In this document: one piece after another, positions 12,132 through 29,058 of the stretch
Numbering within the stretch: the stretch's first letter is position 1
Layout of the letters: each line of letters opens with the position of its first letter
From: Chelativorans sp. J32
Lineage (GTDB): Bacteria > Pseudomonadota > Alphaproteobacteria > Rhizobiales > Rhizobiaceae
DNA length: 64,000 bases
Reading direction: 5' to 3'
NCBI RefSeq assembly: GCF_000518985.1
Contig: NZ_JAEQ01000009.1
Coordinates: 62,001 to 126,000, forward strand
Made by a program: the position numbers and the translations under genes
Notes under the pieces: generated by a model
Databases searched by the model: none
The model's input: the letters and a program-made list of their open reading frames with translations, nothing else
Told to the model about the DNA's origin: nothing

Positions 12132-13052
12132 ATGTTGCGAGCTATCGTTCTGGGCGCTGCGGCAGGTGGCGGCGTACCGCAGTGGAACTGCAATTGCGAT
12201 ATCTGCCGGAAGGCGCGGGCCACCCCTTCCTTCCAGGCAACACAGGCTTCGGTCGCCATCAGCTGTGATGATCTAAACTGGTTCTTGATCAACGCCTCGC
12301 CCGATATCCGTCAGCAGATCAACGGCACACCTCGGCTTCACCCGGCGGGCACTGCCATGCGGCACAGCCCGATTGCGGGCGTGTTTTTGACCAATGGCGA
12401 GGTGGATGCGGTGACGGGCCTCTTGTCGCTGCGTGAGGGATCGCCCTTCTCGATCTACGCGCATCCCAAAGTTCTGTCGGTGCTCGCAGACAACAGCATC
12501 TTCAACGTGCTGAACCCCGAGATCGTGGCGCGCCGTCCCATCGAGATCGAAAAGCCTTTCGAGCCGGTGCTTGCAGACGGCAGCCCGTCCGGCCTTGAGG
12601 TGACGGCGTTCATCGTGCCCGGCAAACCAGCATGGTATCTTGAAGGAACCGAGCGCGCAGATGCGGAGGAAGAAGGCGATACCATCGCCCTTCACATCAA
12701 GGCTCGCGAAGGCGGCGAGCTATTCTTCGTTGCCGCCTGCGGTGATGTGAACGCGGACCTTGCCAGCCGTCTCGAGGGGGCGCCGCTCGTCTTCTTCGAC
12801 GGGACCCTTTGGCGCGACGACGAGATGATCGCTGCCGGGCTGGGGAAGAAGACCGGCAGGAGAATGGGTCATATCTCCATTTCCGGAGAGGATGGCGCGC
12901 TGAGCAAACTCGCCGGGCTACAGCTCGGACAAAAGATTTTCCTGCACATCAACAATTCGAACCCCGTGCTTCTGCCAGGCTCGGCCGAGCGCCGACGGGC
13001 CGAGGAAGCCGGATGGCAGATTGCCTATGATGGTATGGAGCTGACATTATGA
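12132..13052 (+). CDS. pqqB: PQQ biosynthesis protein PqqB
   Basis: A 306-residue metallo-beta-lactamase-fold protein starting MLRAIVLGAAAGGGVPQWNC, with the Cys-rich CNCDICRKAR segment typical of PqqB zinc binding. SPDIRQQI and FLTNGEVDAVTGLLSLREG follow, and the C-terminus has MGHISISGEDGAL and KIFLHINNSNPVL. PqqB is thought to hydroxylate the tyrosine-derived part of the cross-linked PqqA product. The stop overlaps the pqqC start (ATGA). Confidence 0.96.
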   Translation: MLRAIVLGAAAGGGVPQWNCNCDICRKARATPSFQATQASVAISCDDLNWFLINASPDIRQQINGTPRLHPAGTAMRHSPIAGVFLTNGEVDAVTGLLSLREGSPFSIYAHPKVLSVLADNSIFNVLNPEIVARRPIEIEKPFEPVLADGSPSGLEVTAFIVPGKPAWYLEGTERADAEEEGDTIALHIKAREGGELFFVAACGDVNADLASRLEGAPLVFFDGTLWRDDEMIAAGLGKKTGRRMGHISISGEDGALSKLAGLQLGQKIFLHINNSNPVLLPGSAERRRAEEAGWQIAYDGMELTL

Positions 13053-13816
13053 TGCTGGCCTCGGCACGATCCGAAATCGACGAAAGCCCGCTTGAAAGCG
13101 CCGAAGCATTGGAAAAGCGCCTCTACGAGATCGGTGCCAAGCGCTATCACAACCTGCATCCGTTCCACCGCATGTTGCATGGAGGCAAGCTCAACAAGGG
13201 CCAGGTCCAGGCTTGGGCGCTCAACCGCTACTATTACCAAAGCTCGATCCCGATCAAGGATGCGGTGGTTCTCTCGCGCTTCCGCGACCGGAACATCCGC
13301 CTGGAATGGCGCCACCGCATTGAGGACCATGACGGCGATATAGGGACGGAAGGCGGGATAGAGCGCTGGCTCATCCTGACCGACGGCCTGGGCCTCGACC
13401 GTGCCTATGTGGAGTCCACGCGCGGCATCCTGCCCGCTACCCGTTTTGCCGTGGACGCCTATGTGAATTTTGTGGGGCAGCGAACGCCGCTCGAGGCGAT
13501 TGCTTCTTCATTGACGGAGCTCTTCGCGCCCAACCTCCACGAGGAGCGCATTGCCGGGATGCTGGAGCACTACGACTTCATCACTCCGAATGTAATGGCC
13601 TACTTCAAGAGACGCCTCGATCAGGCCACGCGGGATGCGCAGTTCGCCCTCAACTTCGTGAAGGAGCACGCCCGCACGCCGGAAGAGCGGCAGGCCGTCT
13701 GCGAAGCGCTCATCTTCAAGACGAATGTGCTTTGGGTTCAGCTCGACGCACTGCACCATGCCTATGTCTGCGGCCACATCCCCCCGGGAGCGTTCGATCC
13801 AGAGGCTCTCGCATGA
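13049..13816 (+). CDS. pqqC: Pyrroloquinoline-quinone synthase PqqC
   Basis: A 255-residue all-helical oxidase. It contains YHNLHPFHRMLHGGKLNKGQ, ALNRYYYQSSIPIKDAVVLS, RIEDHDGD and the C-terminal KTNVLWVQLDALHHAYVCG, all hallmarks of PqqC. It performs the final ring closure and eight-electron oxidation of the PQQ precursor using O2. It overlaps pqqB and pqqD by ATGA on both sides, so the operon is translationally coupled. Confidence 0.97.
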   Translation: MMLASARSEIDESPLESAEALEKRLYEIGAKRYHNLHPFHRMLHGGKLNKGQVQAWALNRYYYQSSIPIKDAVVLSRFRDRNIRLEWRHRIEDHDGDIGTEGGIERWLILTDGLGLDRAYVESTRGILPATRFAVDAYVNFVGQRTPLEAIASSLTELFAPNLHEERIAGMLEHYDFITPNVMAYFKRRLDQATRDAQFALNFVKEHARTPEERQAVCEALIFKTNVLWVQLDALHHAYVCGHIPPGAFDPEALA

Positions 13817-14136
13817 GCGAACTGCAGCGCAGCACCCCTCGCCCGCAACTTTCGGATGACAGCCGCCCGAAGCTTGCCCGCCACGCGCGGCTGAAATTCG
13901 ACAAGGTGCGCGAACAATGGGTGCTGCTGGTGCCGGAACGGGTGCTTGTTCCCGACGACACGTCGGTGGAAATCCTGAACCTGTGCGACGGCGAGCGGAG
14001 CATCAGCGGGATCGTGGGCGCGCTCTGCCAGAAATACGCAGCAGAACGAGAGCTCATCCGAAACGACGTCATCGCGCTGCTGCAGGATCTTGCCGACAAG
14101 GGCTACCTGACCGTCTCCGGGGAGGACAAGCAATGA
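13813..14136 (+). CDS. pqqD: PqqA-binding chaperone PqqD
   Basis: A 107-residue protein with a disordered basic N-terminus (about 20 residues) and the PqqD winged-helix core: FDKVREQWVLLVPERVLVPD, then ILNLCDGERSISGIVGALCQ and DVIALLQDLADKGYLTV. It presents PqqA to the radical-SAM enzyme PqqE. The ATG at 13813 overlaps the pqqC stop; the frame is open further upstream, but that part lies inside pqqC. Confidence 0.96.
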   Translation: MSELQRSTPRPQLSDDSRPKLARHARLKFDKVREQWVLLVPERVLVPDDTSVEILNLCDGERSISGIVGALCQKYAAERELIRNDVIALLQDLADKGYLTVSGEDKQ

Positions 14137-15302
14137 CCGATCTGCTCGAGCACGCAAGCCAGTCCGAAGCCAAGATCCGGTCTGGCGCCGGGAAGACCTA
14201 TGGGATTCCGATGGCGGTTCTCGCGGAACTGACACACCGCTGCCCGCTCCAATGCCCCTATTGCTCGAACCCGGTGGAGCTGGAACGGGCCGGTGCCGAG
14301 CTTTCCACGGAAGAGTGGAAACGCGCGATAACCGAGATGGCCGATATGGGCGTGCTGCAGATCCATTTCTCCGGCGGTGAGCCCACGGCGCGTCGTGATC
14401 TCGTGGAACTGGTACGACATGCGACCGAAGCCGGCCTTTATTCCAATCTCATCACTTCCGCCGTTCTCCTGACGCGCGACCGCCTCGAACAGCTTAGCGA
14501 TGCAGGCCTTTCCCATGTGCAGATCAGCTTTCAGGGGAGTGAGGAAGGTCTTGCCGATCGCGTCGGCGGATACAAGGGAGGCCATTCCAAGAAGCTCGAA
14601 GCGGCCCGCTGGACGCGCGAGCTTGGCCTGCCGCTCACCGTCAACGCCGTCATGCACCGCCAGAATTTGCACCTATTGCCGAAGATCATCGATATGGCGG
14701 TGGTACTCGACGCAGACCGGCTGGAGGTCGCGAACGTTCAGTATTACGGCTGGGCGTTGAAGAACCGGGCCGCGTTGATGCCGACCGAAGAGCAGGTGGA
14801 CGAGACGACCCGCATCGTGGAAGAGGCGCAGGAACGGCTGCGCGGCCTTCTCGCCATAGATTATGTGATCCCCGACTATTACGCACTTAGGCCAAAGAAG
14901 TGCATGGGCGGCTGGGGCCAGCAATTCTTCAACATATCGCCGTCCGGCAAGGTGCTGCCCTGTCATGCCGCCGAGTCCATAACGGGCCTCAACTTCGATT
15001 CCGTGCGCGACCACTCGCTTGCCTGGATCTGGGAGAACTCGCCCGCGCTCAATCTTTATCGCGGCACGGACTGGATGCCCGAGCCCTGCAGAAGCTGCAG
15101 CCACATGGAGGAAGATCTCGGCGGTTGCCGCTGCCAGGCCTTCGCTCTTACGGGAGATGCGGCTGCCACGGATCCGGCCTGCGCGCTCTCGCCTTTGCAC
15201 GAAAAGATCTTTCGCACTGCTCAAACCGAAGCAGAGGCTGCTTCCAACGAGTTCATCTTCCGCAATTTTGCAGGAGGAACAGCGGAGAGCGGCCGGAAGT
15301 GA
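14133..15302 (+). CDS. pqqE: PqqA peptide cyclase PqqE (radical SAM)
   Basis: A 389-residue radical-SAM/SPASM enzyme. The [4Fe-4S]-SAM motif CPLQCPYC (CxxxCxxC) is near residue 36, followed by IHFSGGEPTAR. The C-terminal SPASM cysteines are in KKCMGGWGQQFFNISPSGKV, PCHAAESI and CRSCSHMEEDLGGCRCQAF. It forms the Glu-Tyr carbon-carbon bond in PqqA. ATG 14133 overlaps the pqqD stop and is preceded by GGGGAGG; upstream in-frame starts lie inside pqqD and were rejected. Confidence 0.97.
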   Translation: MTDLLEHASQSEAKIRSGAGKTYGIPMAVLAELTHRCPLQCPYCSNPVELERAGAELSTEEWKRAITEMADMGVLQIHFSGGEPTARRDLVELVRHATEAGLYSNLITSAVLLTRDRLEQLSDAGLSHVQISFQGSEEGLADRVGGYKGGHSKKLEAARWTRELGLPLTVNAVMHRQNLHLLPKIIDMAVVLDADRLEVANVQYYGWALKNRAALMPTEEQVDETTRIVEEAQERLRGLLAIDYVIPDYYALRPKKCMGGWGQQFFNISPSGKVLPCHAAESITGLNFDSVRDHSLAWIWENSPALNLYRGTDWMPEPCRSCSHMEEDLGGCRCQAFALTGDAAATDPACALSPLHEKIFRTAQTEAEAASNEFIFRNFAGGTAESGRK

Positions 15303-16312
15303 AATCCGGAGACAGCACCAGCGGCGATGCGGCGAGGCCACTAGGGGAGGTGCCGCCAGAACTCTGGTCCGGCTATCTGCCGGTCGGGGGTGGTCATGAG
15401 ATCTATGTCGAAACGGCAGGCTCTCCGGCTGGTATCCCCGCTGTCTTCCTCCACGGTGGGCCGGGCAGCGGTTGTCAGCCGGAACACAGGACATTGTTTG
15501 CCGGTGGGCGGTTTCATGCCGTCCTGTTCGATCAACGGGGCGCGGGGCGGAGCAGGCCGCATGGACGCCGTCTCGCCAACACGACCGATCATCTGATTGA
15601 GGACATGGAGATCATCCGCCAGACGCTCGGTTTCGAGAAATGGCTGGTGGTCGGCGGTTCGTGGGGGGCCACTTTGGCGCTCGCCTATGCGGAGCGACAT
15701 CCCGAGCGCGTCATCGGTATCGTCTTGCGCGCAACGTTTCTCGGCACGCGCACCGAACTTGACGGCGCATTTCGGGACAATCTCACGCGTTTTTACCCTC
15801 CCCTCCACCGCGATTTTCTGAACCTCGTGCCGGAAGACGAGCGTTGCGATCCGCTTTCCGCCTATTGGCGGCGCATCCTCGGCGACGACGCTCGCGAAGC
15901 GGCCCGCTTCGCATATGTGTGGGCTGTCGTGGAACGCGCCCTTGCCTCGCTGGTGCCTCCGGCTGACCGGCTCGATCTCGCAGCGATCAAGCAGAGTTCG
16001 AGTTCGCCACCCGCAAGCGCCTTCATGGAGGCCCATTATTTCAGTCACGACTGCTTTCTGGCGGAAGCACCGCTTCTGGAAAATGCCCACCGGCTGAAGG
16101 GCATTCCCGGTATCATCATTCAGGGCCGCTACGACCTTCTATGCCCTCCTGCGACAGCATATGCGCTGGCGGCCCGCTGGCCAGGGGCGGAGGTGCGCAT
16201 CGTGGAAGGCGCCGGCCATCTTTTGGGAGAAACAGGCGTCCGCGATGCGGTGGTGAAGGCAATTGCGGATGTGGCGGATCAGGTGCCGGTCACACAGCTT
16301 GCGAGAGGTTGA
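15299..16312 (+). CDS. pip: Proline iminopeptidase (alpha/beta hydrolase, peptidase family S33)
   Basis: The 337-residue protein shows the S33 pattern in order: FLHGGPGSGCQPEHRTLF (oxyanion loop), FDQRGAGRSRPH, VGGSWGATLALAYAERHP with the nucleophilic Ser, QGRYDLLCPP with the acidic residue, and GAGHLLGE with the His. It removes N-terminal proline residues. GTG at 15299 overlaps the pqqE stop (GTGA), putting it in the pqq operon. A role in trimming PqqA or its fragments is suggested by this coupling and by the absence of pqqF, but is inference. Its 3' end overlaps the convergent M16C gene by 23 bases. Confidence 0.88.
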   Translation: MKSGDSTSGDAARPLGEVPPELWSGYLPVGGGHEIYVETAGSPAGIPAVFLHGGPGSGCQPEHRTLFAGGRFHAVLFDQRGAGRSRPHGRRLANTTDHLIEDMEIIRQTLGFEKWLVVGGSWGATLALAYAERHPERVIGIVLRATFLGTRTELDGAFRDNLTRFYPPLHRDFLNLVPEDERCDPLSAYWRRILGDDAREAARFAYVWAVVERALASLVPPADRLDLAAIKQSSSSPPASAFMEAHYFSHDCFLAEAPLLENAHRLKGIPGIIIQGRYDLLCPPATAYALAARWPGAEVRIVEGAGHLLGETGVRDAVVKAIADVADQVPVTQLARG

Positions 16313-19127
16313 ATGCGCCTGGGCGCTCCTGCAGCGCGGCATTCAAAGCAGCCTCCGACCCCAAAACCGCGACGCGCTTCTCCCGCGCTTCAATAAGGTC
16401 GGCCAGCTTGAGGAAATCGGCTCGGGTGGTCGCAAGGAGACGATCGCGCCGCTCCTGCCGTCTCTCGCAAGTGTCCCCGGCAAGCCTGGCGAGCATCGCT
16501 TCAAACCCCCGCTCGCCGGGAAGCCTGGGGCGGTCGATCTCGCCGAAAGCGCTGATAATGCTTCGCCTGATGTCGTCTTCGTGAACCGACTCCCGCAGGA
16601 ATCGGGGGACCGCGTCGAAAATGTCGAGCGTGCGCAGGAGGTTCGGGTCCCGGTAGGATAAGAAGCGGAGACCTCCGGACAAAGGATCCAGTCGCACCAA
16701 AGCTCCATAAGCTCCACCTTGCATACGCACCTGGTCCCACAGCCATGTCCCGGCAATATAGCGCGTGGCAGCGGCATGAGCGCCCACCTGCGCCGCCTCT
16801 TCGGAGAGCTTCAGCCCCTGCCCTACGAAATTGACCGGCGCTTCGATGGGAAGGCCCATCGAACCGGAAAGCGCCGGAGGGAGGCTGCCTCGTTGCGACG
16901 TTCTCCCGTCGGACAGATGTTCCAGGAACGCCAGCACGGCCGCCGCGACACCGTCCGCAGCGGCTGGCTCGACGGTCACGTCGCAGATTGCACCCTCGCG
17001 CCGGATCAAAAGCCGCCGCAGTCGCTCCAAATCGGCAAGGACCGATTCCCAGTCGGTTTCCGCGCGCTCGCACAGGCGCTGAAGAAAACGAAGCTGCGAA
17101 ACGCCGTTCAGCACCTCGGCAAAAGCCCCTGCCGGATGGAGCGCGGCGGAAAGGGCGAGATCCGCATACTCATGCCCGCGTGGTATCAAACGGGCTCTGT
17201 GCCGTGAAATCTCGTCCTGGAGAAGCGCCATGAAGCGATTGTGATCGTCGAACCGCGCGGCCGTCAGGATATCGGTTAGGATGGCCAGGATCGCGCCCAG
17301 ATTTTCCTTCATCCCCCGGAAGCGCAGGAAAAGCCAGGCTTGAGCCTGGGACGAGGTTTGGCAAGCAAAGGCGCGTTGTTCCACGGAGACCCCTCCGACA
17401 AAGCGGGCCATGCGCAGCGCCAAGTCTTCCGCGCTGTCCCTTTCAGTCCCGCATTCCAGGAGCGCGCGCCCGAACAGGGGCGCAAGTGGCAACAGCGTTG
17501 CAGGCAGGGTGTCGATACGGAAGCCAAGCTGGAGATAACAAATTCCGTTGGTCGGCAATGGGTGGAGGAGCACGCACGGATGGTCCTGCCGCATGATTTC
17601 ACACCGCGTAGGCGTCTCCTCGCGGGGCAATTCGTCAAGACCGAGCACCGGTACATTCGCGATGCCGGTATGTTCGTCCGCCGTAGATAAATGCACATAA
17701 GTGGCCAGAAGAGCCTGCAACCTGCTCCGCTCGGCCGCCTTTTCGCGAGCTTCAAGCGTCGGATCGGGAGAGAGTGTCACGGTAGCCCGGTGGAGGTTTT
17801 CCCCAAACAGGATTCGCAGCCGCTCGCGCAGATGGGCATCCGCTTCCATCTTCTCCCTGAGCGCCGCGAGGGGTGTTTCGAATGCCAGGAAATCGATCGG
17901 ATCATGCCCGGAGCGCCAGGGCCCGAGAATGCGAAGCATGAGCGCCAAACCCGGCGGATGGCGCCCGCCGTCATTTTCCCGGAGCCGGAACGCGAGGCGA
18001 TTAAGGCAAGCTTCCACAAGCGCCCTTGGCGGACCTTTCCGGATCAACTCGGTGATCACCTCATCGACCAATTGATCGAAGCGGATCGCATCCCGGGCGG
18101 CGACACCACTCAGGCCTATCGAAAAGATCGGCTGCCGTGTCTCTCGTGAGAGGCCGTCGCCTATCAAGCCTTCGCCAAGCCCGCTTTCAATCACCGCGCG
18201 CCGGAGCGGTGCCGCATCGGAGCCCAGAAGCAATTCCGCCAGGAACAGCTGCTCCAGCGCTTCGAACGGATCGGAAAGGTCAGGCAGAACCCATCCGCGT
18301 ATGACGTGCCCGCCGGGACCGCCGGAGCCAATGCTCCGACGCACGAGCCGCGGCGTGGCAAACGACACCTGGCGTGAAGAAACGCCTGCAGGAGTACCAA
18401 GGCCCCATCCATCCAGATGTCTCTGCAAAAACGCGAGCGCCTGCTGCATGTCGAGATCGCCCGACAGGAACACGATCGCGTTGGAGGGATGGTAGTATTT
18501 GGAATGGAACCGCTGCAGCGCTTCATGCGCCAGCGTGGGGATCAATGCCGGATCGCCGCCGTGGTCGAACCGATAGGAAGTGTCAGGGAAAAGGGCCGCA
18601 CGCAACTCCTTTACCAGCACGGCGGCAGGGTCCGCATAGACGCCCTTCATCTCGTTGAGGACGACTCCACCGAAATGCGCTGGCTTCCCGCCTTTTTCGG
18701 GAATGATATGCCATGCTTCCTGTCGAAAAGTGCTTTCCCGCAGGAGCGGGTGGAACACGGCGTCCAGATAGACTTCGAAGAGATTATAGAAGTCACGCTC
18801 GTTCTGGCTTGCCGCCATATAGGTCGTCATATCCGGCAGCGTGGAGGCATTGAGATGCGTGTGCAGCGAGCCTTTCAGCAATTCAGCGAAGGGCGCAGCC
18901 GAAGGAAAATGCCGCGAGCCGCAGAGCACCGAATGTTCGAGGATATGCGCCACGCCGGTGGAATCGGACAACGGCGTCCGGAATGTTATTCCAAAGCACT
19001 TATTCGCATCGCCGTTCGCCAGCGTGAGAATTTCGGCACCGGTCGCCTCATGGATGAATGCCCGGGCCGAGGATGCGAGTTCCGGGATCTCCGCCTCACG
19101 CACAAGCTTGAACGAATCCACTGTCAC
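16290..19127 (-). CDS. M16C metallopeptidase (presequence protease/insulinase-related)
   Basis: A 945-residue protein, the full length of the PreP/Cym1 class. The inverted zinc motif HILEH is at residues 61-65 in GVAHILEHSVLCGSRHFP, with the distal zinc Glu in GGVVLNEMKGVYADP. FHSKYYHPSNAIVFLSGDLD is also family-typical. Such enzymes form a closed chamber that degrades short peptides. It starts with GTG at 19127 after AGGAG. The canonical PQQ peptidases PqqF/PqqG are M16B; an M16C protein converging on the pqq operon may process PqqA here, which is inference. It lies 72 bases downstream of the lysR gene on the same strand. Confidence 0.85.
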   Translation of the reverse strand: MTVDSFKLVREAEIPELASSARAFIHEATGAEILTLANGDANKCFGITFRTPLSDSTGVAHILEHSVLCGSRHFPSAAPFAELLKGSLHTHLNASTLPDMTTYMAASQNERDFYNLFEVYLDAVFHPLLRESTFRQEAWHIIPEKGGKPAHFGGVVLNEMKGVYADPAAVLVKELRAALFPDTSYRFDHGGDPALIPTLAHEALQRFHSKYYHPSNAIVFLSGDLDMQQALAFLQRHLDGWGLGTPAGVSSRQVSFATPRLVRRSIGSGGPGGHVIRGWVLPDLSDPFEALEQLFLAELLLGSDAAPLRRAVIESGLGEGLIGDGLSRETRQPIFSIGLSGVAARDAIRFDQLVDEVITELIRKGPPRALVEACLNRLAFRLRENDGGRHPPGLALMLRILGPWRSGHDPIDFLAFETPLAALREKMEADAHLRERLRILFGENLHRATVTLSPDPTLEAREKAAERSRLQALLATYVHLSTADEHTGIANVPVLGLDELPREETPTRCEIMRQDHPCVLLHPLPTNGICYLQLGFRIDTLPATLLPLAPLFGRALLECGTERDSAEDLALRMARFVGGVSVEQRAFACQTSSQAQAWLFLRFRGMKENLGAILAILTDILTAARFDDHNRFMALLQDEISRHRARLIPRGHEYADLALSAALHPAGAFAEVLNGVSQLRFLQRLCERAETDWESVLADLERLRRLLIRREGAICDVTVEPAAADGVAAAVLAFLEHLSDGRTSQRGSLPPALSGSMGLPIEAPVNFVGQGLKLSEEAAQVGAHAAATRYIAGTWLWDQVRMQGGAYGALVRLDPLSGGLRFLSYRDPNLLRTLDIFDAVPRFLRESVHEDDIRRSIISAFGEIDRPRLPGERGFEAMLARLAGDTCERRQERRDRLLATTRADFLKLADLIEAREKRVAVLGSEAALNAALQERPGAFNLSQAV

Positions 19128-19199: not shown

Positions 19200-20240
19200 T
19201 TATCGGTTCGATAGCGACATGGCATTCGGAAGTTCGACATTTTCGAGGAATGGCGGAGTATCCTTCAGGGGGGGCAGTTGGAGCGTCGCCGCGGCATCCT
19301 GCAACGCCTGAAGGAAACTCGCATAGGGCTGGGTACGCCTATATTGCGTCGGAACGAGTGCCACCATTTTCCGCGGCGGGAACGAAACACGGTAAAGGTG
19401 AACGCCTTGCGGCGGGGTCCCGTCCATCATGCAGGCAAGCACCGGGGCCAGGCATACGCCGAGCCCAGCCCGGACAAGAGCCAACGCATCCTCGTAGCTG
19501 CGCGTGCTGGCGATTTGGCGGTTTTCCGGCAGCACCTCCGCATACCATTCCTGAACACGTTGCGTATGATTGGTTCCGAAGGAAAACCGGATCGACCTGT
19601 TGAGCACGTCCTGTTTCGCGCTCGAAAGCTGGCGCGGATGCAGAACGCCGTCGAGACTGATTTCTTCCGGGACAGCCAGGACATACGGGTCCTCGAGCAA
19701 CGGGATTTCCATGAAGCCGGTCCCCGCGCTGGCGACGGAACCCGCATTGATGAGGCCTACATTCGCCCGTCTCCCATAAAGCATCTCCAGCACATCCGGA
19801 GGGGCGCAGTCGTGAATGTCATATTCGACGTCGGAATATTCCTCCTGGACCGTGGCAGCCGCCCTGGGCAACACGAGGCGCAGCATCGAGCTTAATCCGG
19901 CCACCCGTATCGTCACGTGAATGCCTTCGCTGAACTCGGCGAGCCCATCCTCCAGTTCCTGCATGCTTCTCAAGACCTGCTCGGCCTTGCGAAGAAGGAA
20001 ACTCCCGGCTTCGGTCAGGATCATCTGGTTGGACCGCCGCTCGAACAGCGGCGTTCCCACGACGGCCTCCAGGCTTGCGATCTGCTGAGAGAGCGAGGGC
20101 TGCGAGAGGCCGAGTTGCTTGCTGGCTTTCGTCACCGTTTCGTTATGCGCGACAGCCCAGAAGATACGCATGCGCTGGAGTGTGATCTCGCCATTGCGCT
20201 TCCCGGCCCTTCGGGGTTTCAGCACCTCGGCATTCGACAT
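19200..20240 (-). CDS. LysR-family transcriptional regulator
   Basis: The 346-residue protein carries the LysR helix-turn-helix near residues 20-80: MRIFWAVAHNETVTKASKQL, then GLSQPSLSQQIASLEAVVGT and PLFERRSNQMILTEAG. A periplasmic-binding-like effector domain follows. It has an N-terminal extension of about 20 basic residues. It is transcribed away from the TolQ/TolR-like cassette and toward the M16C peptidase gene. It is the only local candidate to control the PQQ genes, and a T-N11-A dyad sits in front of pqqA. The effector is unknown. Confidence 0.9.
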   Translation of the reverse strand: MSNAEVLKPRRAGKRNGEITLQRMRIFWAVAHNETVTKASKQLGLSQPSLSQQIASLEAVVGTPLFERRSNQMILTEAGSFLLRKAEQVLRSMQELEDGLAEFSEGIHVTIRVAGLSSMLRLVLPRAAATVQEEYSDVEYDIHDCAPPDVLEMLYGRRANVGLINAGSVASAGTGFMEIPLLEDPYVLAVPEEISLDGVLHPRQLSSAKQDVLNRSIRFSFGTNHTQRVQEWYAEVLPENRQIASTRSYEDALALVRAGLGVCLAPVLACMMDGTPPQGVHLYRVSFPPRKMVALVPTQYRRTQPYASFLQALQDAAATLQLPPLKDTPPFLENVELPNAMSLSNR

Positions 20241-20674: not shown

Positions 20675-21445
20675 ATGTCGGTCATAACGAATGGCAGGCT
20701 GATTGGTACGCCAGCCGAGTCTCGCGATTACATGCCGCTGATCCTGTGGCTCATCCTGATCAGCTGCATCGGGCTGGGACTCCTCGTCCTGTTTCGGCTC
20801 GGTCTCATTCAGATCATGCTCGAGACCGACCGCAGCCACATCTCGATGCTGATCCTGGCGATCTTCGCGCTCACCACCCTGCACTGCCTCTATCAGGTCG
20901 TCGTCATCTCGCGGGAATTGGTGGCAGCCCGGCGCATCCGCCAAACCATACTTGATGGCGCCAGCGGATTTCTGCTTATCGGCGACCAGGTGAAAACGGC
21001 GGAGGGCGAGGTTCTGGAGCCGGGCATCGCCGCCCGCCACATCGCCAATCTGGTTGCAAAATCCAGGGCCCAGAACGGACGCCGGGTCGATCAGACCTTG
21101 CTTTTGCGCTCGCTCGCCGACCAGTTGCGGGGGCGGGAAAAGCTGGGCTTTTTCGTGGCGGAAGCACTCCTCAGACTGGCCCTTCTGGGCACGGCGGTAG
21201 GCTTCATCCTGATGCTGGTGCCAATCGCCGGATTGAGTTCCTTCGACGTCGAGACCCTGCGCACCGCCCTCGCAGGAATGAGCGGCGGCATGGCCGTCGC
21301 GCTCAATGTGACGGTTGCGGGTATCACCTGCGCATTGCTCCTGAAGATGGAGTACTACATTCTCGACGCGGCCAATGCCCAGCTTTTCAACATCATCACA
21401 GAGGTTACAGAGGTCCACGTCGTCTCCGCGCTGGAGAAGAACTGA
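20675..21445 (+). CDS. MotA/TolQ/ExbB-like proton-channel protein
   Basis: A 256-residue membrane protein. Two hydrophobic helices lie near residues 20-65 (LILWLILISCIGLGLLVLF and MLILAIFALTTLHCLYQVVV). A charged cytoplasmic stretch of about 85 residues follows, then two more helices (ALLGTAVGFILMLVPIAG-like and GGMAVALNVTVAGITCALLL). The LGT..G and NVTVAG helices match the conserved Thr/Gly helices lining the TolQ/ExbB/MotA proton path. The ATG at 20675 has GGGGGAGAG directly upstream. Its stop overlaps the next gene, which has a TolR-type helix, so the two should form one H+-driven complex. Its target is unknown. Confidence 0.75.
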   Translation: MSVITNGRLIGTPAESRDYMPLILWLILISCIGLGLLVLFRLGLIQIMLETDRSHISMLILAIFALTTLHCLYQVVVISRELVAARRIRQTILDGASGFLLIGDQVKTAEGEVLEPGIAARHIANLVAKSRAQNGRRVDQTLLLRSLADQLRGREKLGFFVAEALLRLALLGTAVGFILMLVPIAGLSSFDVETLRTALAGMSGGMAVALNVTVAGITCALLLKMEYYILDAANAQLFNIITEVTEVHVVSALEKN

Positions 21446-22083
21446 TGGAGGGCTCTGGCTTTTTCTCCGAAGCCGGAAGCGATGACGGCACCTTCGTCCC
21501 ATTTACCGACATTCTGTTCAATGTCCTTCTGGGCTTCGCCTTTATGGTGTTCATCGCCTTTTCGCTTTTCAACCCGGAGGCGAAGTCGGGACTTATCGAT
21601 CTGAAGGCTGAGATGATCGTCACTGTGTCATGGCCGGACAATCATCCGGACGACGTCGACACCTATGTCGAGGACCCGGCCGGAAACGTCGTCTGGTACC
21701 ATGCGCGGGAGGCCGGTCTCATCCATCTGGATCGGGACGACCGAGGCAACTACCGCGATACGATCGTCGTCAACGGGGAGCGGATCCAAAACCCGCTCAA
21801 CCAGGAGAATGTCACGTTTCGCGGCATTCTTCCCGGCGAATATGTCGTCAACATCTACCACTATATCGCCAATTCCACGGACGACCTGCCGGTGACGGTG
21901 AAGGTGGAAAAGCTGAACCCGCAGCTGCAGGTCATCTATTACGGCACCTTGATGCTGAACCATCGGGGGCACGAGCGCACCGCCGTCCGGTTCACGCTCG
22001 ATGAAGAGGGCAACGTGTCCGATGTGAACGAGCGGGAAAAATCCCTGGTCCGCGCGGTCAGAAAACCCAAGGCCGGAGGGTAG
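21445..22083 (+). CDS. TolR/ExbD/MotB-like anchored periplasmic protein with an atypical C-terminal domain
   Basis: The protein is 212 residues. One N-terminal helix near residues 17-42 reads VPFTDILFNVLLGFAFMVFI. The Asp after P-F-T sits where ExbD/TolR/MotB carry their essential proton-binding Asp. The periplasmic part is not the ExbD/TolR fold and has no OmpA peptidoglycan domain. It instead has SWPDNHPDDVDTYVEDPAGN and an all-beta-looking region (GEYVVNIYHYIANS, VEKLNPQLQVIYYGTL) resembling DUF2135/pre-peptidase-type beta domains. It starts at ATG overlapping the upstream TGA. The partner is the TolQ-like protein just upstream; the domain call is tentative. Confidence 0.7.
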   Translation: MEGSGFFSEAGSDDGTFVPFTDILFNVLLGFAFMVFIAFSLFNPEAKSGLIDLKAEMIVTVSWPDNHPDDVDTYVEDPAGNVVWYHAREAGLIHLDRDDRGNYRDTIVVNGERIQNPLNQENVTFRGILPGEYVVNIYHYIANSTDDLPVTVKVEKLNPQLQVIYYGTLMLNHRGHERTAVRFTLDEEGNVSDVNEREKSLVRAVRKPKAGG

Positions 22084-22092
22084 GCGGAAGCT

Positions 22093-22674
22093 ATGAACAT
22101 TCCGACTTTGACGGGCGTCGTCGTCTGCTATGGTCTGATCGCCGCGCTCCTCCTCAGCCTCAATGTGGTGTCGTTATGGCGATGGTGGATCAAGGCCGCC
22201 GCCGTCATTGTGACGACTGTTTTCGTCGTCGCATCCTACGCGGCGATCAATGGCATGCTCGGCTGGCCGACGACGAAAAGGCCGCCCGGACGCTTTCATC
22301 TCCTTGCCACCCATATCGTCGAGCCGGACAAGGCCACATCCGCCGGCGGTGCGCTCTATCTATGGATGGAGGAACTGGACGACGACAACATGCCACGCGG
22401 CGCTCCCCGCGCCTTCCAGCTTCCTTATAGCGACCAACTGGCCAGGGATATGGACCGCGCGCAGCAGCGCCTCGACAATGGCGAGGCGATCATGGGCGTG
22501 GTCGATGAAGCCCAGGCCATCGAAGCCGATCAAGAGAAGATTCGCATCGGCGAGATGAGCGAAAATGCCGAACTCTCGGCGGCTACGGACACGGTCCCCT
22601 TTCAATCCGACGGCATGATGATCGAATTCGAGAACCTGCCGCCGGTGGATCTGCCCGACAAGGGGCCACTATGA
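22093..22674 (+). CDS. Membrane protein of unknown function, third gene of the TolQ/TolR-like cassette
   Basis: The protein is 193 residues with two N-terminal hydrophobic helices (about residues 8-28 and 32-53), the conserved-looking LGWPTTKRPPGRFHLLATHI, and then a soluble acidic tail with a helical Glu/Asp/Gln-rich part (DRAQQRLDNGEAIMGVVDEA). It begins 9 bases after the previous stop, so it is very likely co-transcribed and part of the same envelope complex. I do not recognise the family. The tail could contact the beta domain of the neighbouring protein. Confidence 0.65.
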   Translation: MNIPTLTGVVVCYGLIAALLLSLNVVSLWRWWIKAAAVIVTTVFVVASYAAINGMLGWPTTKRPPGRFHLLATHIVEPDKATSAGGALYLWMEELDDDNMPRGAPRAFQLPYSDQLARDMDRAQQRLDNGEAIMGVVDEAQAIEADQEKIRIGEMSENAELSAATDTVPFQSDGMMIEFENLPPVDLPDKGPL

Positions 22675-23045: not shown

Positions 23046-24785
23046 ATGTTAATTAAATCGGCCGCGCTCCGCGGCATTTTCATGTCGGCGCTTCTAGCGT
23101 CGACTGCCATTCCGGCTCTGGCTGCAGAAGTCACCCCGGAGCGCCTTTTGAACGCCGCGCAGGAGCCGCAAAACTGGCTCATGGTGCACAAGGAATACAA
23201 CAGCAACCGTTTTTCGCAGCTCGACGAAATCAACAAGGACAATGTGAAGAACCTGAAGGTCGCGTTTACCACCGCGATCGGCGGCCTGATGGGCGCGGGC
23301 ACCAATCCCATGGGAGGACACCAGGCCACTCCACTCGTCAATGACGGCTATATGTATGTGGTCGACAGCTGGGGGGCGGTCTACAAGATCGATGTTCGCG
23401 ACGGGAAAAGCGGCAAGATCGTCTGGGTCATGGACCCGGGCGTCGATAAGGCGGATGTCTGGATCCCGTCCAATCGCGGAGTGGCGCTCTACAAGAATTT
23501 CGTGATCTCCGTCACCGCCGATGGAAAGGTGAACTGGACCAATGCCGACACCGGCGAGCTGGTCAAGACCGTTCAGGTGGACGATCCGAAGAACGGGTAT
23601 TCGCTGACTGCCGCGCCGCTGGTCGTCGGAGATAAACTGCTGATCGGCGGCTCCGGCGGCGACCGCGGGGCGCGCGATCATATCACCGCGCTAAACGCCG
23701 ATACTGGCGAGCAGCTCTGGCGCACCTATTCGGTACCCGCTCCGGGCGAGCCGGGATCGGAGACCTGGGGCGGAGAGAACAACGCCTGGATGCATGGCGG
23801 CGGCGCATTCTGGGTGACGGGTGCCTATGATCCCGAGACCAAGCTTACGCTGTGGGGAACGGGCCAGCCGGTCCCGATGTATGATCCGGAATACCGGCCG
23901 GGCGACAACCTCTATACCAACAGCACATTGGCATTGGACGTCGATACCGGAAAAATCGAGTGGTACTTCCAGTATACGCCCGGCGATTTCCTCGATTATG
24001 ACGAGGTCGGCTCACGCCAGATCATCAACGCGAAGGTGGATGGCGAAGATCGCAAGCTGATGGGCTACTTCGCCCGTAACGGCTTCTTCTACACCCATGA
24101 TCGGACGAACGGGCAATTCCTCGGCGCCAAGCAATACGTGACGAAGCTGAACTGGACCGACGGCATCGATCCCAAGACCGGCAAACCGGTAGAGTATGAT
24201 GATTCCAAGGACATCCAGGTCTACAAGGTGGGAGCGCCTTCGCGGCGTGACCAGGGCGCCATCGAGGCATGCCCCCACATCCAGGGCGGCGTGAACCTCT
24301 TCCCGACCTCATACAGCCCGAAAACAGGCGCCGTATACGGAGCCGGAATGGAAGGCTGCGCCGAGGTGACGACGGACCCCGCGCGCTCCGATGGCAAGAT
24401 TGCCTGGAACGGCGGCCAAGCAGTGAATGCCGGCCGCATAACCGGCAGCATCACGGCCATGGATCCGACGAATACGGAGCAGAAGGCACAGAAGCTGTTC
24501 GACTACCCGAACTATTCCGGCGTGGTCAGCACCGCCGGAGGGCTGGTGTTCACGGCGACCATGGACGGGACGATCCATGCTCTCGACGACGAGACGCTTG
24601 AGGAGCTCTGGAGCTTCAACGCCGGCTCTCCGATCTCTGCTCCCCCGATGACCTATGCGGTCGACGGCAAGCAGTATGTGGCCATACTCGTCGGTGCGCA
24701 CCGTATCCCCTACGGCCGCATCACCAACACGCCGGAGCTGCAGGATATTCAAAACACGTCGATGCTGTACGTGTTCTCGCTCTAG
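23046..24785 (+). CDS. Periplasmic PQQ-dependent alcohol dehydrogenase (methanol/ethanol family) with atypical metal site
   Basis: The 579-residue protein has a signal peptide ending at ALAA (residue 27), then the eight-bladed propeller with repeated DxxTGxxxW docking motifs (DADTGEQLW, DVDTGKIEW). The active-site segment GDFLDYDEVG contains Asp317-Tyr-Asp319; the D-x-D pattern marks lanthanide-type enzymes (XoxF, ExaF, PedH). The family arginine is in ARNGFFYTHDRTNG. Two metal ligands differ: Asp206 replaces the usual Glu (GGSGGDRGAR) and Gln274 replaces the usual Asn (GTGQPVPMYD). The vicinal Cys-Cys pair is absent (KADVWIPSNRG); the only cysteines are 409 and 438 in the mature region. GGAGG precedes ATG 23046. 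Substrate is unknown. Confidence 0.88.
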   Translation: MLIKSAALRGIFMSALLASTAIPALAAEVTPERLLNAAQEPQNWLMVHKEYNSNRFSQLDEINKDNVKNLKVAFTTAIGGLMGAGTNPMGGHQATPLVNDGYMYVVDSWGAVYKIDVRDGKSGKIVWVMDPGVDKADVWIPSNRGVALYKNFVISVTADGKVNWTNADTGELVKTVQVDDPKNGYSLTAAPLVVGDKLLIGGSGGDRGARDHITALNADTGEQLWRTYSVPAPGEPGSETWGGENNAWMHGGGAFWVTGAYDPETKLTLWGTGQPVPMYDPEYRPGDNLYTNSTLALDVDTGKIEWYFQYTPGDFLDYDEVGSRQIINAKVDGEDRKLMGYFARNGFFYTHDRTNGQFLGAKQYVTKLNWTDGIDPKTGKPVEYDDSKDIQVYKVGAPSRRDQGAIEACPHIQGGVNLFPTSYSPKTGAVYGAGMEGCAEVTTDPARSDGKIAWNGGQAVNAGRITGSITAMDPTNTEQKAQKLFDYPNYSGVVSTAGGLVFTATMDGTIHALDDETLEELWSFNAGSPISAPPMTYAVDGKQYVAILVGAHRIPYGRITNTPELQDIQNTSMLYVFSL

Positions 24786-24836: not shown

Positions 24837-24905
24837 GATCCGTTTCCTGACGGGCCTCGACGAGTGGCGAGCCCTCGGTGTTGGAACGGGCCAAAAGGTA
24901 AAATC

Positions 24906-25667
24906 ATGCGCACACCTCTTCGCCTCCTGACGTTTATCGCCGGGTGCCTGGCGGCTGTCGGCATCGCCTCGGCCCAGACCCGGCCGGAGATATACGACAT
25001 ATGGAAGGTCACGCTCGGCATGAAGGCCGGGGAAATTCCCGACGAGTTCATCGAGCATGCCTGCGGTACCCATGGGGGACCGCCATCCCTAAAGCTGGCT
25101 GGCTTCACGGACTTCATGAAGTGCAAGCCCGAAGCAAATGGTTTGCGGGAAGTCTATTTCCGGTATGACGACGAATACGAATACTGGGCCCGAGCCAATG
25201 AGCTGGAACTGGAAACGCAGCTCTTCAGCGGCACACGCTTGTTCGATTATCCCGTTATAATGTCGCTCCTGTTCGATGAGGACGGAGCGGTCCGGGGTGT
25301 GCGCGTCATCACCGATCCCCGGGTCGGCGATGCCGAGCGCGGCCGGCGGGAATTCTGGACAATGGCGAACTTCGTGAAGATTCGTTTCGGGCCCGATAAT
25401 TGGAACTGCCGGGACTTGCCCAAGGAAGAAGGGGAATCGCCGGCCGGGAGTTATTTTATCAAGGAGCGTTGCGAAAAACGGCTCGATGGCGATCTCTATC
25501 TTTACGAGAGAAGATACTACCACAAGAAGGGCCAGACCTTCATCGATCCTCATTCCGGGGGGATCAACACGGAAGCTTATGTGAGCTCCACCTGGTTCGA
25601 GCTTCTAGATGGGGGAATAGAGCCGGTCCCGACCGCTACTCAGCAACCCGCCCGTCGGGAAGGATAG
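24906..25667 (+). CDS. Secreted protein of unknown function next to the PQQ dehydrogenase
   Basis: The 253-residue protein has a clear signal peptide (MRTPLRLLTFIAGCLAAVGI, then ASAQ). The mature part is rich in aromatic and charged residues, with cysteines in EHACGTHGGPP, DFMKCKPEA, NWNCRDLP and KERCEKRLDG, enough for two disulfides. It is hydrophilic with no membrane helix. ATG 24906 follows AAAGG. I do not recognise a family. It is probably periplasmic, and its position suggests a part in dehydrogenase maturation or electron transfer. The 3' end overlaps the convergent pentapeptide gene by 32 bases. Confidence 0.7.
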   Translation: MRTPLRLLTFIAGCLAAVGIASAQTRPEIYDIWKVTLGMKAGEIPDEFIEHACGTHGGPPSLKLAGFTDFMKCKPEANGLREVYFRYDDEYEYWARANELELETQLFSGTRLFDYPVIMSLLFDEDGAVRGVRVITDPRVGDAERGRREFWTMANFVKIRFGPDNWNCRDLPKEEGESPAGSYFIKERCEKRLDGDLYLYERRYYHKKGQTFIDPHSGGINTEAYVSSTWFELLDGGIEPVPTATQQPARREG

Positions 25668-26433
25668 CGCCCGATATCTTCAGCCCCTCGGTGGTCGCAT
25701 GTTCCATATTGGCGCGCTCCAGCCGCGAACCCCGCAGATCGGCGTTCGACAAATCCGCCCTCGAAAGATCGGCGGCCAGGAAGTCCACCTGAATGGCCGA
25801 AGCCTGCGACAGGTTCGCGCCGACCAGATGGCTTTGCTCGAAGCTCGCCCCATTCATCTTGGCCGCCGTCAATATCGCCCGCTGCAGGTCGGCGCCTCGA
25901 AGGTTCGTGCGCTCCAGGATCGCGCCGGTCAAATCCGCGCCGGCAAGCCTCGCCTCCTTCGCGACCGCCGCTTCGATATGTGCGCCCGCCAGTTTGGCCT
26001 GGGTCAAACGGGCCCGTCCCATCCGCGTGCCGTCAAGGATGGCACCCTCGAGATTTGCAGCCGAGAGATCAGCTTCATAGAGCAGAGAGCCGGTCAAATC
26101 GGCTTTGCGCAGAGATGCCCTTTTCAGGTCGGTCTTGTTGAGATTCGCGTGTTGCAGATTGGCGCCGTCCAGCTTGGCGCCCGCGAGTTTGGCACGATGC
26201 AGCACGGCGTTGCTGAGATTGGCATTGGTGAGATCCGCGCCCGAAAGGTCGCGCCGCTTCAGCCGCACGCCGCTCAGATCGCAGCCGGGACAATCGGCCG
26301 TCTTGCCCGCAAGGAAAGCTTCCCGGTCGGCATTGCCGCTGCTCTGCGCCGCCACGGAGCCGCTCCAGACCGACGCCAGGACGATCAAGACGAAAGACCG
26401 GTAAAGCGAAGACGTGCGGCCGCAGTCGAGCAT
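25636..26433 (-). CDS. Secreted pentapeptide-repeat protein
   Basis: The protein is 265 residues. A signal peptide (about 1-30) is followed by a short linker, a CPGC motif (TADCPGCDLSGVRLKRRDLS), then roughly 35 tandem A(D/N)LxX-type pentapeptides (for example LSGADLTNANLSNAVLHRAK and LAGADLTGAILERTNLRGAD) up to about residue 250. Such repeats fold as a right-handed quadrilateral beta-helix. Export to the periplasm is indicated by the signal peptide. The function of such exported CPGC-pentapeptide proteins is unknown to me. It converges on the secreted hypothetical gene with a 32-base coding overlap. Confidence 0.88.
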   Translation of the reverse strand: MLDCGRTSSLYRSFVLIVLASVWSGSVAAQSSGNADREAFLAGKTADCPGCDLSGVRLKRRDLSGADLTNANLSNAVLHRAKLAGAKLDGANLQHANLNKTDLKRASLRKADLTGSLLYEADLSAANLEGAILDGTRMGRARLTQAKLAGAHIEAAVAKEARLAGADLTGAILERTNLRGADLQRAILTAAKMNGASFEQSHLVGANLSQASAIQVDFLAADLSRADLSNADLRGSRLERANMEHATTEGLKISGAILPDGRVAE

Positions 26434-26561
26434 GTTGACACCTTGAAAATTCGTTGCGACGAACAGCGTAAAAGATTGAATTCATACCCGCAAGCGGCAA
26501 ATCATTCATATTTTCTGCTGTCACTTCTGCAAAGTCTTAAGAAATGCCTGGAGGAGCTTTC

Positions 26562-27053
26562 ATGCCGAGACTAGCACTTGCCCTCTCTTTGCTTCTGGCA
26601 ACCGCGTTGCCGGGAGCTGCTTCCATGCTCGTCGGCCAAGCCTCGGTCATCGATTCCGATGTCCTCGATCTCGACGGGCAGCGGATCATGCTTTACGGGC
26701 TCGAGTCCGTGGAGCGCGGGCAAACCTGCCTGATCGACGGCACGGCTTGGGATTGCTATCCTGCGGCCGTCAGGCAGCTGGAGACGCTTGTCTCGGAAGG
26801 GCCAGTCGAATGCGAACAGGTTGGCGAGCCGGATCGCTACCGCCGCATCCTTGCCTATTGCCGGATCGGGGAAAAAGATCTGAACGAGGCATTCGTCGCC
26901 TCCGGTTTTGCCGTTGCGCGCCCCGACGAGACGGATCGCTTCGTGGCTGCCGAAGAGGCCGCCAAGAAGGCGGGGCTCGGTCTTTGGCAGGGTAAGTTCC
27001 TTCGGCCGATGGACTACCGCGTTTCCGTAGGGATCATGGTCGACCGCCCGTAG
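26562..27053 (+). CDS. Secreted thermonuclease-like (SNase fold) protein
   Basis: The 163-residue protein has a signal peptide (MPRLALALSLLLATALPGAA) and an OB-fold thermonuclease-like domain: SVIDSDVLDLDGQRIMLYGL, QTCLIDGTAWDCYPAAVRQL, EPDRYRRILAYCRIGEKDLN and GFAVARPDETDRFVAAEEAA. GGAGGAG lies just before ATG 26562. The classic nuclease pattern places an Arg where this protein has IMLYGLES, so one catalytic arginine appears missing. Nuclease activity is therefore doubtful. Cys residues suggest periplasmic disulfides. Its reason for lying near the PQQ module is unknown. Confidence 0.8.
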   Translation: MPRLALALSLLLATALPGAASMLVGQASVIDSDVLDLDGQRIMLYGLESVERGQTCLIDGTAWDCYPAAVRQLETLVSEGPVECEQVGEPDRYRRILAYCRIGEKDLNEAFVASGFAVARPDETDRFVAAEEAAKKAGLGLWQGKFLRPMDYRVSVGIMVDRP

Positions 27054-28357: not shown

Positions 28358-28473
28358 CGGGTTGCGGGGATCATGCAAACTATCCCACACATCGCTTGTC
28401 TATGCGGCGCCTGCGGACGCCCTGTCCGCGGAGGAGGCAATCGGCGTTTAGGCCAAATTTTTCGAGGAGTTCG

Positions 28474-29058
28474 ATGAAAATGCTGGGTGGAGGAATGAAG
28501 TACGCGAAGCGGGCGAGCCTTGCTGCTCTTTTTCTTTTCGGGGCCGTTGGCTGGGCGTCGGCGGACGAGGCGTCGATCGAGCGCGGCCGGACGATATTCG
28601 ATGGCAAGGGCGCATGCTCGTTCTGCCATGGCTGGGCCGGTGACGGCCAGGGTGATCCTCGCTCCGAGGGCGGCGCCCCATCGCTGCGTGCTTCCGCTCT
28701 CAATCGCGATCAGGTCCGCGAAATCGTGCAATGCGGCCGGCTCGGCACCGCGATGCCCTATTTCGACCGTTTCGCCTATACGGATGATCGTTGCTACGGC
28801 ATGACCGCGGCCGATGCCGGTGCTGAGATGCCGACGCGCTCCTTCACCACGTTGCAGGCACACGAGATTGACGCGGTGGCCGACTATGTCGCCGCCAAGG
28901 TGCTGGGCGCCGGCGACGTGACGTTCGAGCAATGCGTCGAGTTCTTCGGCAAAGTGGTTGAAGCCTGCGGCAATTATCCCACCGCATCGGGCGAAAAGCC
29001 GGATATGTCGAAGGCCGAGCCAACCCCGCAAAGCGGCGCGCCTACCGATGCCCACTAA
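28474..29058 (+). CDS. Periplasmic monohaem cytochrome c
   Basis: The 194-residue protein has a signal peptide (KYAKRASLAALFLFGAVGWA) and a single haem-binding CSFCHG near residue 43. The likely axial Met lies in GAEMPTRSF near residue 119. Four more cysteines (VQCGRLG, DRCYGM, EQCVEF, EACGNYP) could form two disulfides. A Pro-rich tail ends the protein. ATG 28474 has GAGGAG 4 bases upstream; an internal ATG at 28495 is too close to its GGAGG. It is a plausible electron acceptor for the PQQ dehydrogenase, like XoxG or MxaG, though four genes lie between them. Confidence 0.85.
   Translation: MKMLGGGMKYAKRASLAALFLFGAVGWASADEASIERGRTIFDGKGACSFCHGWAGDGQGDPRSEGGAPSLRASALNRDQVREIVQCGRLGTAMPYFDRFAYTDDRCYGMTAADAGAEMPTRSFTTLQAHEIDAVADYVAAKVLGAGDVTFEQCVEFFGKVVEACGNYPTASGEKPDMSKAEPTPQSGAPTDAH

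Follow-up and report, generated by a model that had tools for sequence, protein, structure and literature searches.

A conserved three-gene MotA/TolQ/ExbB-type cassette is probably an undescribed helper of PQQ dehydrogenases

The Q-R-S locus and its gene neighbourhood

The window, that is, the whole 64,000-nucleotide stretch of DNA that we analysed, carries three co-oriented genes on the + strand, here called Q, R and S. The stop codon of Q overlaps the ATG of R by one base, R and S are separated by 9 bases, and an AG-rich stretch lies 5′ of the Q ATG. An earlier note, made from the sequence alone, had described this trio as a proton-driven envelope cassette flanked by a LysR gene and a PQQ dehydrogenase, and both flanking genes were found as described. 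The features of the region are the following:

12132..13052, + strand: pqqB (TIGR02108, 383.8 bits)
13049..13816, + strand: pqqC (TIGR02111, 362.9 bits)
13917..15302, + strand: pqqE-like radical SAM gene, named by eye, clustering with the PqqE-like genes of loci L041 and L048; its true start is probably further in
19200..20240, - strand: LysR-type regulator, named by eye, divergent from the trio; the LysR cluster recurs in 15 loci
20675..21445, + strand: Q, channel subunit of the MotA/TolQ/ExbB family, 256 aa (PF01618, hydropathy and conservation in 106 relatives)
21445..22083, + strand: R, subunit in the ExbD/TolR position, 212 aa, with a predicted helix carrying Asp22 (PFTDILFN) and a putative periplasmic acidic beta-sandwich domain
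22093..22674, + strand: S, predicted two-helix membrane protein, 193 aa, with a compact soluble domain modelled in an OB-like arrangement
23046..24785, + strand: PQQ-dependent alcohol dehydrogenase of the methanol/ethanol family (TIGR03075, 472.8 bits; motif TPGDFLDYDE)
24864..25667, + strand: protein that recurs near the trio (cluster 12, 19 loci, by clustering) and has no NCBIfam family
25636..26433, - strand: pentapeptide-repeat-like exported protein, named from reading the repeats, recurrent trio neighbour (cluster 5, 24 loci)
26544..27053, + strand: small SNase-like protein, family named by eye, recurrent trio neighbour (cluster 13, 19 loci)
28396..29058, + strand: cytochrome-c-like protein, recurrent trio neighbour (cluster 10, 20 loci); matches to cytochrome families at E 1.9e-6 to 6.5e-4, below cut-offs

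The dehydrogenase narrowly missed the curated TIGR03075 cut-off of 480 bits, and its DYD motif (Asp at +2) is presumably that of a lanthanide-type enzyme. The pqqB, pqqC and pqqE-like genes lie 5-9 kb upstream of the trio. Between them and the trio, at 16290-19127, there is a gene for a 945-aa peptidase-like protein that reads as M16 by eye; PqqF and PqqG are M16 proteases, and the 945-aa protein may act in PQQ precursor processing. As the earlier note had stated, no TonB, TolA or receptor gene was seen near the trio, a judgement made by eye only on the ORFs at 5-36 kb of the window.

Features of the three proteins

Q passed the Pfam profile PF01618 (MotA_ExbB) narrowly, with 23.6 bits against a cut-off of 22.9, and its relative in locus L035 reached 34 bits. 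Hydropathy predicted about four membrane helices. In 106 relatives, the polar-ring threonines were kept (T205 0.98, T245 1.00) and glycines G204, G208 and G237 were invariant (1.00; these five positions are numbered on the extended ORF), so that the reading of the first protein as a TolQ/ExbB/MotA-type subunit with Thr/Gly helices holds. Q also matched ZorA weakly, with E 1.2e-4 in PADLOC and 17.4 and 11.9 bits in NCBIfam (cut-offs 100 and 700, respectively), and a PDB sequence search with Q gave weak TolQ/ZorA-like matches. With NCBIfam scores this far below their cut-offs, and no PADLOC match for R, membership of the Zorya defence family was rejected.

R contains a single predicted helix (residues 19-42) that holds PFTDILFN with Asp22 and is followed by beta structure. 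Neither R nor S had a credible family match in Pfam, NCBIfam or PADLOC profile searches, or a credible match in the PDB sequence search. A profile test set beforehand gave no match of R to PF02472 (ExbD/TolR) up to E 10; in the source genome this profile finds one gene only, the TolR at C34, and a separate TolQ-TolR-TolA set is present elsewhere. R was thereby ruled out as a canonical ExbD/TolR, as had been anticipated, and the trio was rejected as a plain Tol paralogue in terms of membership. Profile comparison aligned R residues 49-146 with residues 134-216 of E. coli YfaP (E 1.2e-5), and a wider profile gave E 9.8e-5 against 0.043 for the best decoy. The periplasmic domain, which the earlier note had called unusual, is hence foreign to ExbD/TolR but not wholly new, being related to YfaP/DUF2135, even though R does not match the Pfam profile of DUF2135 (PF09906). 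A 1118-aa VIT-domain protein at locus L159 (genome G531) carries a C-terminal DUF2135, and the match of the R profile in this protein overlaps with it, a further link between R and DUF2135.

A fold search placed the R model closest to TerD folds. Foldseek itself gave R no match at E ≤0.001, and its best one (2.9e-3, TM 0.14) is not meaningful. Homology to TerD, which the fold search suggested, found no support in sequence profiles, where hhalign gave E 0.14-0.3, the same level as decoys. Metal binding by R would thus rest on the putative fold and on an acidic cluster that is invariant in 111 relatives; calcium binding appears in the title of TerD entry 2kxt, from the tellurite-resistance family. 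R differs from TerD in its membrane anchor and, by family topology, its periplasmic location.

The helix Asp of R, taken in the earlier note as the proton carrier, stood in the window protein and in 88 of 111 relatives; in the other 23 the position is V, A or S. On an R tree built by a quick method from 113 rows (111 clustered relatives, and two of the three loci from elsewhere in the phylum), Asp22 changes at least twice, being lost in two lineages. One includes L134, whose record is titled Rhodopseudomonas, along with numerous genomes of 6-9 Mb from one genus of the window's order, and the other consists mostly of Rhodobacterales-type records. An acid four residues before the Asp position is present in 22 of the 23 Asp-less proteins and also in 46 of the 88 that bear the Asp. 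Either the carrier has shifted, perhaps to this earlier acid, or these copies are not proton-driven. Nothing else speaks as strongly against a simple, proton-driven motor as this twofold loss of Asp inside the PQQ-linked clade. Genomes with an Asp-less R (for instance L036 and L098) keep the Q channel residues, and part of both groups keeps PQQ neighbours; such variants put the idea of a proton carrier to a natural test.

For S, two helices are predicted and no family matched credibly, in line with the unrecognised third membrane protein of the earlier note. In its structural model, the helices are accompanied by a compact domain and the conserved tail forms a strand, not an arm that spans the periplasm. 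A TonB/TolA-like arm is therefore unlikely, judging from the model, and because of this compactness the outer-membrane process that the earlier note had put forward as a client also becomes less likely.

When compared with TolQ-TolR and ExbB-ExbD, the trio has the same order of a channel gene followed by a gene for a single-helix protein, a Q that matches PF01618 and carries the LGT/T motifs, and the PFxDxxL Asp in most R proteins. It differs in the YfaP-like beta domain of R, the approximately four predicted helices of Q, the compact S in place of TolA or TonB and the lack of the R Asp in two lineages. The yfaA-yfaP set of E. coli, which shares with R the aligned region of YfaP, has no proton-channel gene among the features shown.

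Distribution of the trio and its association with PQQ dehydrogenases

Of 397 genomes searched in the window's order, 44 had R relatives, the source genome having one R. By score, we divided their matches into a close class (E ≤1e-50), with 35 places spread over 34 genomes, and a divergent class with 12 places; ten genomes have divergent R only. Of 398 genomes drawn from the phylum, 18 had an R match, three of them outside the order at high score. From a GTDB contig scan that found at least 501 R relatives, the best 80 were kept, a set that leans to the window's nearest relatives and bears the titles Devosia, Bauldia, Rhodobacterales, Rhodobiaceae, PS1, SAR86, Pseudomonadales and HIMB59. Conservation of the trio extends over Alpha- and Gammaproteobacteria. 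We counted gene order in the 103 R loci that have 900 nt or more of flank on either side: Q immediately precedes R in 85 of them, S immediately follows it in 90, and 81 show both. Uncertain ORF starts lower these counts, and the three-gene cassette first read from the letters of the window is borne out. In L095, L107 and L112, R occurs without a recognised Q or S. A search of plasmids returned only distant Azospirillum copies (29-30% identity, 7 records).

PqqC was detected in 34/34 genomes of the order with close R versus 18/68 genomes without R, the latter randomly drawn from the 353 R-less genomes of the order; counted by genus, the figures were 13/13 and 14/42. A PQQ dehydrogenase (E ≤1e-80) was present in 37/37 genomes with close R, including three outside the order, versus 20/68 without R, and PqqC in two of the three R genomes outside the order. 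The R-less genomes that have PqqC or a PQQ dehydrogenase indicate that quinoproteins can work without the trio.

The association was also visible in gene neighbourhoods. Defining linkage as the presence of any of nine PQQ markers, whose profiles were built from genes of these same loci, we found a marker within approximately 10 kb in 55 of 80 GTDB contig loci (36/52 when at least 15 kb was required) versus 1 of 40 random regions, which were taken from genomes with R in the order and phylum sets and not from the GTDB contig genomes (Fisher 9e-12, a value that, like all Fisher values here, ignores shared ancestry). The corresponding counts were 8/26 for close loci of the order (26 of the 35 close places examined), 2/3 for loci from elsewhere in the phylum and 1/12 for divergent loci. 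On the R tree, the presence of PQQ neighbours changes at least 10 times. The families represented among the neighbours were TIGR03864, 03866, 03863, 03861, 04559, 03871, 04557, 02108 and 02111 (03864 and 03863 below cut-offs). The ABC genes of the TIGR03861/03863/03864/03866 kind, which NCBIfam names after PQQ alcohol dehydrogenase or alcohol systems, presumably resemble lut genes.

Loci lacking such neighbours still belonged to genomes with the enzyme. Of the 25 unlinked GTDB contig loci, 24 (all but L077) trace to 23 searched genomes, every one of which matched TIGR03075, 22 with a best match of at least 250 bits and one with a partial match of 156 bits; 14 of the 23 passed the curated cut-off that the window enzyme just misses. 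At a loose threshold, TIGR03075 also picked up 9 of the 14 control genomes, always below the cut-off; at 1e-80 no control genome matched. The association between the trio and PQQ enzymes is well supported, and the tie to PQQ dehydrogenases that the earlier note had suspected from a single locus is strengthened by these co-occurrence counts. No such tie exists for the divergent R subfamily, with PqqC found in one of its 10 genomes, although one divergent copy (L052) sits in a PQQ cluster.

Several groups of loci had features of their own. Loci L051, L053-L058 and L060-L062 belong to the divergent Q-R(-S) subfamily, whose genomes for the most part lack PqqC. In the gammaproteobacterial loci L091, L105, L116, L126, L127 and L146, the trio is accompanied by FHA/vWA, L,D-transpeptidase-like and two-component genes, not every one of them in each locus, and not by PQQ genes; PQQ dehydrogenases lie elsewhere in these genomes. 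Loci L076, L077, L080, L095, L100, L103, L107 and L112 come from small genomes of 2.3-2.5 Mb, with Rhizobium sp. Q54 or Alphaproteobacteria as record titles. Most of these genomes have R in multiple copies, and each of the four in which TIGR03075 was searched yielded 14-20 matches, partials included. A short Sel1-like-repeat protein (by eye, cluster 26) is encoded upstream of Q in L039, L040, L041, L048, L049, L050, L065 and L066.

The capacity to make PQQ was less constant than its use. In 50 genomes behind hand-chosen GTDB-scan loci, two of which (L070 and L073) share PqqC places with G158 and G182 of the order set, PqqC was found in 20 and absent in 30, many of the assemblies being incomplete. 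At least 28 of these 30 have a PQQ dehydrogenase in the trio locus. The absence follows groups, with 6/6 SAR86-titled and 4/4 Pseudomonadales-titled records lacking PqqC. Several alphaproteobacterial-titled records, for example Devosia sp. Root635, also lack it, and PqqC was present in Devosia sp. Root413D1. Genome G599 (L162), which has the trio and a PQQ dehydrogenase, has no PqqC either. The trio thus follows PQQ use more than PQQ synthesis. In these enzymes, Asp at position +2 from the catalytic Asp marks the lanthanide type and Thr the calcium type. Of 51 trio-linked dehydrogenases, 26 had Asp at this position, 23 had Thr and two were unread; PqqC was absent in 21/21 genomes with the trio beside a Thr+2 enzyme and in 7/14 with the Asp+2 type.

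Possible roles of the trio

We tentatively propose that the three proteins assemble into a single inner-membrane machine of MotA/TolQ/ExbB type, which would be a dedicated accessory of periplasmic PQQ dehydrogenases, acting in the loading or upkeep of their cofactor or metal. By analogy with the family, Q subunits would surround a small number of R helices as a ring, and the protons let through would set R in motion. The YfaP/DUF2135-like beta-sandwich of R, with its TerD-like predicted fold and conserved acidic cluster, might bind a hard cation or a cofactor-metal pair, and S could keep the complex or its client near the membrane. Most likely, the machine would load, exchange or maintain the metal-PQQ cofactor of quinoproteins on the periplasmic side of the inner membrane. 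Since calcium-type and lanthanide-type enzymes, PQQ makers and scavengers all share the trio, the common step is likely to lie at the enzyme, and linkage to both Asp+2 and Thr+2 dehydrogenases suits a step common to all quinoproteins. A bolder version, which we consider possible but doubtful, is that the trio is the first dedicated proton-driven envelope machine for quinoproteins, one with a TerD/YfaP-type cation-binding subunit through which the membrane potential would load or repair metal-PQQ in makers and scavengers alike, including the streamlined marine SAR86, PS1 and HIMB59.

A rather unlikely alternative is that the trio is a Ton-like energiser of outer-membrane uptake, for external PQQ, a lanthanide carrier or an alcohol substrate, with S replacing TonB. 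The 30 genomes without detectable PqqC that keep R need outside PQQ, given that at least 28 of them have the enzyme in the locus. According to the consulted part of PMC12124388, PqqU is largely absent from Alphaproteobacteria, so some other PQQ route may exist there, and several of the trio records without PqqC bear alphaproteobacterial titles. Two large TonB-receptor-like proteins (by eye) are also encoded near the trio of G599. Against uptake, no TonB-receptor-like cluster was recognised in the 60 neighbour clusters that occur most often (each judged by eye on the first part of a single representative), the modelled S has no periplasm-spanning arm, and PQQ makers keep the trio too.

Unlikely as well, and somewhat more so, is a sensor or regulator of the proton motive force that would match periplasmic alcohol oxidation and electron flow to the membrane state while delivering nothing. 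The recurrence of cytochrome-c-like, LysR and two-component genes beside the trio agrees with it, and a role without pumping would accord with the two lineages whose helix Asp is missing; however, the Q channel residues are kept in 98-100% of the 106 relatives, and Pfam, NCBIfam and PADLOC searches found no signalling domain in Q, R or S.

We give little credence to uptake or insertion specific to lanthanides for lanthanide-dependent dehydrogenases. The Asp at +2 in the window enzyme and in 26 of the 51 linked dehydrogenases in all, together with the neighbouring lut-like ABC genes, would favour such a role, but the 23 Thr+2 enzymes, calcium type by the general rule, imply that the trio is not lanthanide-only. 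Equally improbable is that the trio serves in Zorya-like defence against phages, or that it is an unrelated Tol/Ton paralogue found with PQQ users only because of a common habitat: the distant ZorA similarity of Q and the gammaproteobacterial group with FHA/vWA and L,D-transpeptidase-like genes speak for it, but PQQ linkage is repeated in different arrangements and lineages, and 7/7 searched genomes of that group carry a PQQ dehydrogenase over the cut-off. Least probable of all is export of PQQ from cytoplasm to periplasm, proposed because the window and loci L041, L048 and L098 have pqqB, C and E close to the trio (L161 has pqqC and pqqB-like genes there) and in keeping with PqqC in 34/34 close-R genomes, since a trio that follows PQQ use over synthesis, with PqqC absent in 30 of 50 often incompletely assembled genomes, in all 21 with Thr+2 loci and in G599, argues against it; PQQ delivery as suggested in the earlier note is unlikely in this sense.

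Should the trio indeed assist the loading or upkeep of quinoproteins, it would bear on enzymes that are abundant in soil and ocean bacteria, for which it is poorly known how PQQ and its metal get to them and into them in the periplasm; a conserved, putatively energised system that tracks the enzymes and not PQQ synthesis would make the question of cofactor entry directly testable. It would also give the Tol/Ton/Mot motor family a new client and a new periplasmic module, along with natural variants devoid of the standard helix Asp.

We found no description of the trio in the open-access literature. The consulted parts of PMC6277846, PMC10848612, PMC9301485, PMC4264754, PMC11996626, PMC13088180, PMC12124388, PMC9389320, PMC12505986, PMC12905483 and PMC7391723 do not describe it with PQQ enzymes, and a word search in the available portions of motor papers returned no PQQ, DUF2135 or YfaP. 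The trio shares its TIGR03861/03863/03864/03866 neighbours with the lut (LutAEF/LutH) and ped sets, but it is absent from the lut list in the part of PMC7391723 consulted. The same part names no ExbB/TolQ/MotA gene from a transposon screen for XoxF function in M. extorquens, which would count against a helper role if that strain carries the trio. In the portion of PMC6277846 available to us, two MotA/TolQ/ExbB genes, MEALZ_3990 and MEALZ_3991, are lowered by lanthanum together with mxa genes, and we regard this pair as a lead only towards a candidate counterpart of the trio.
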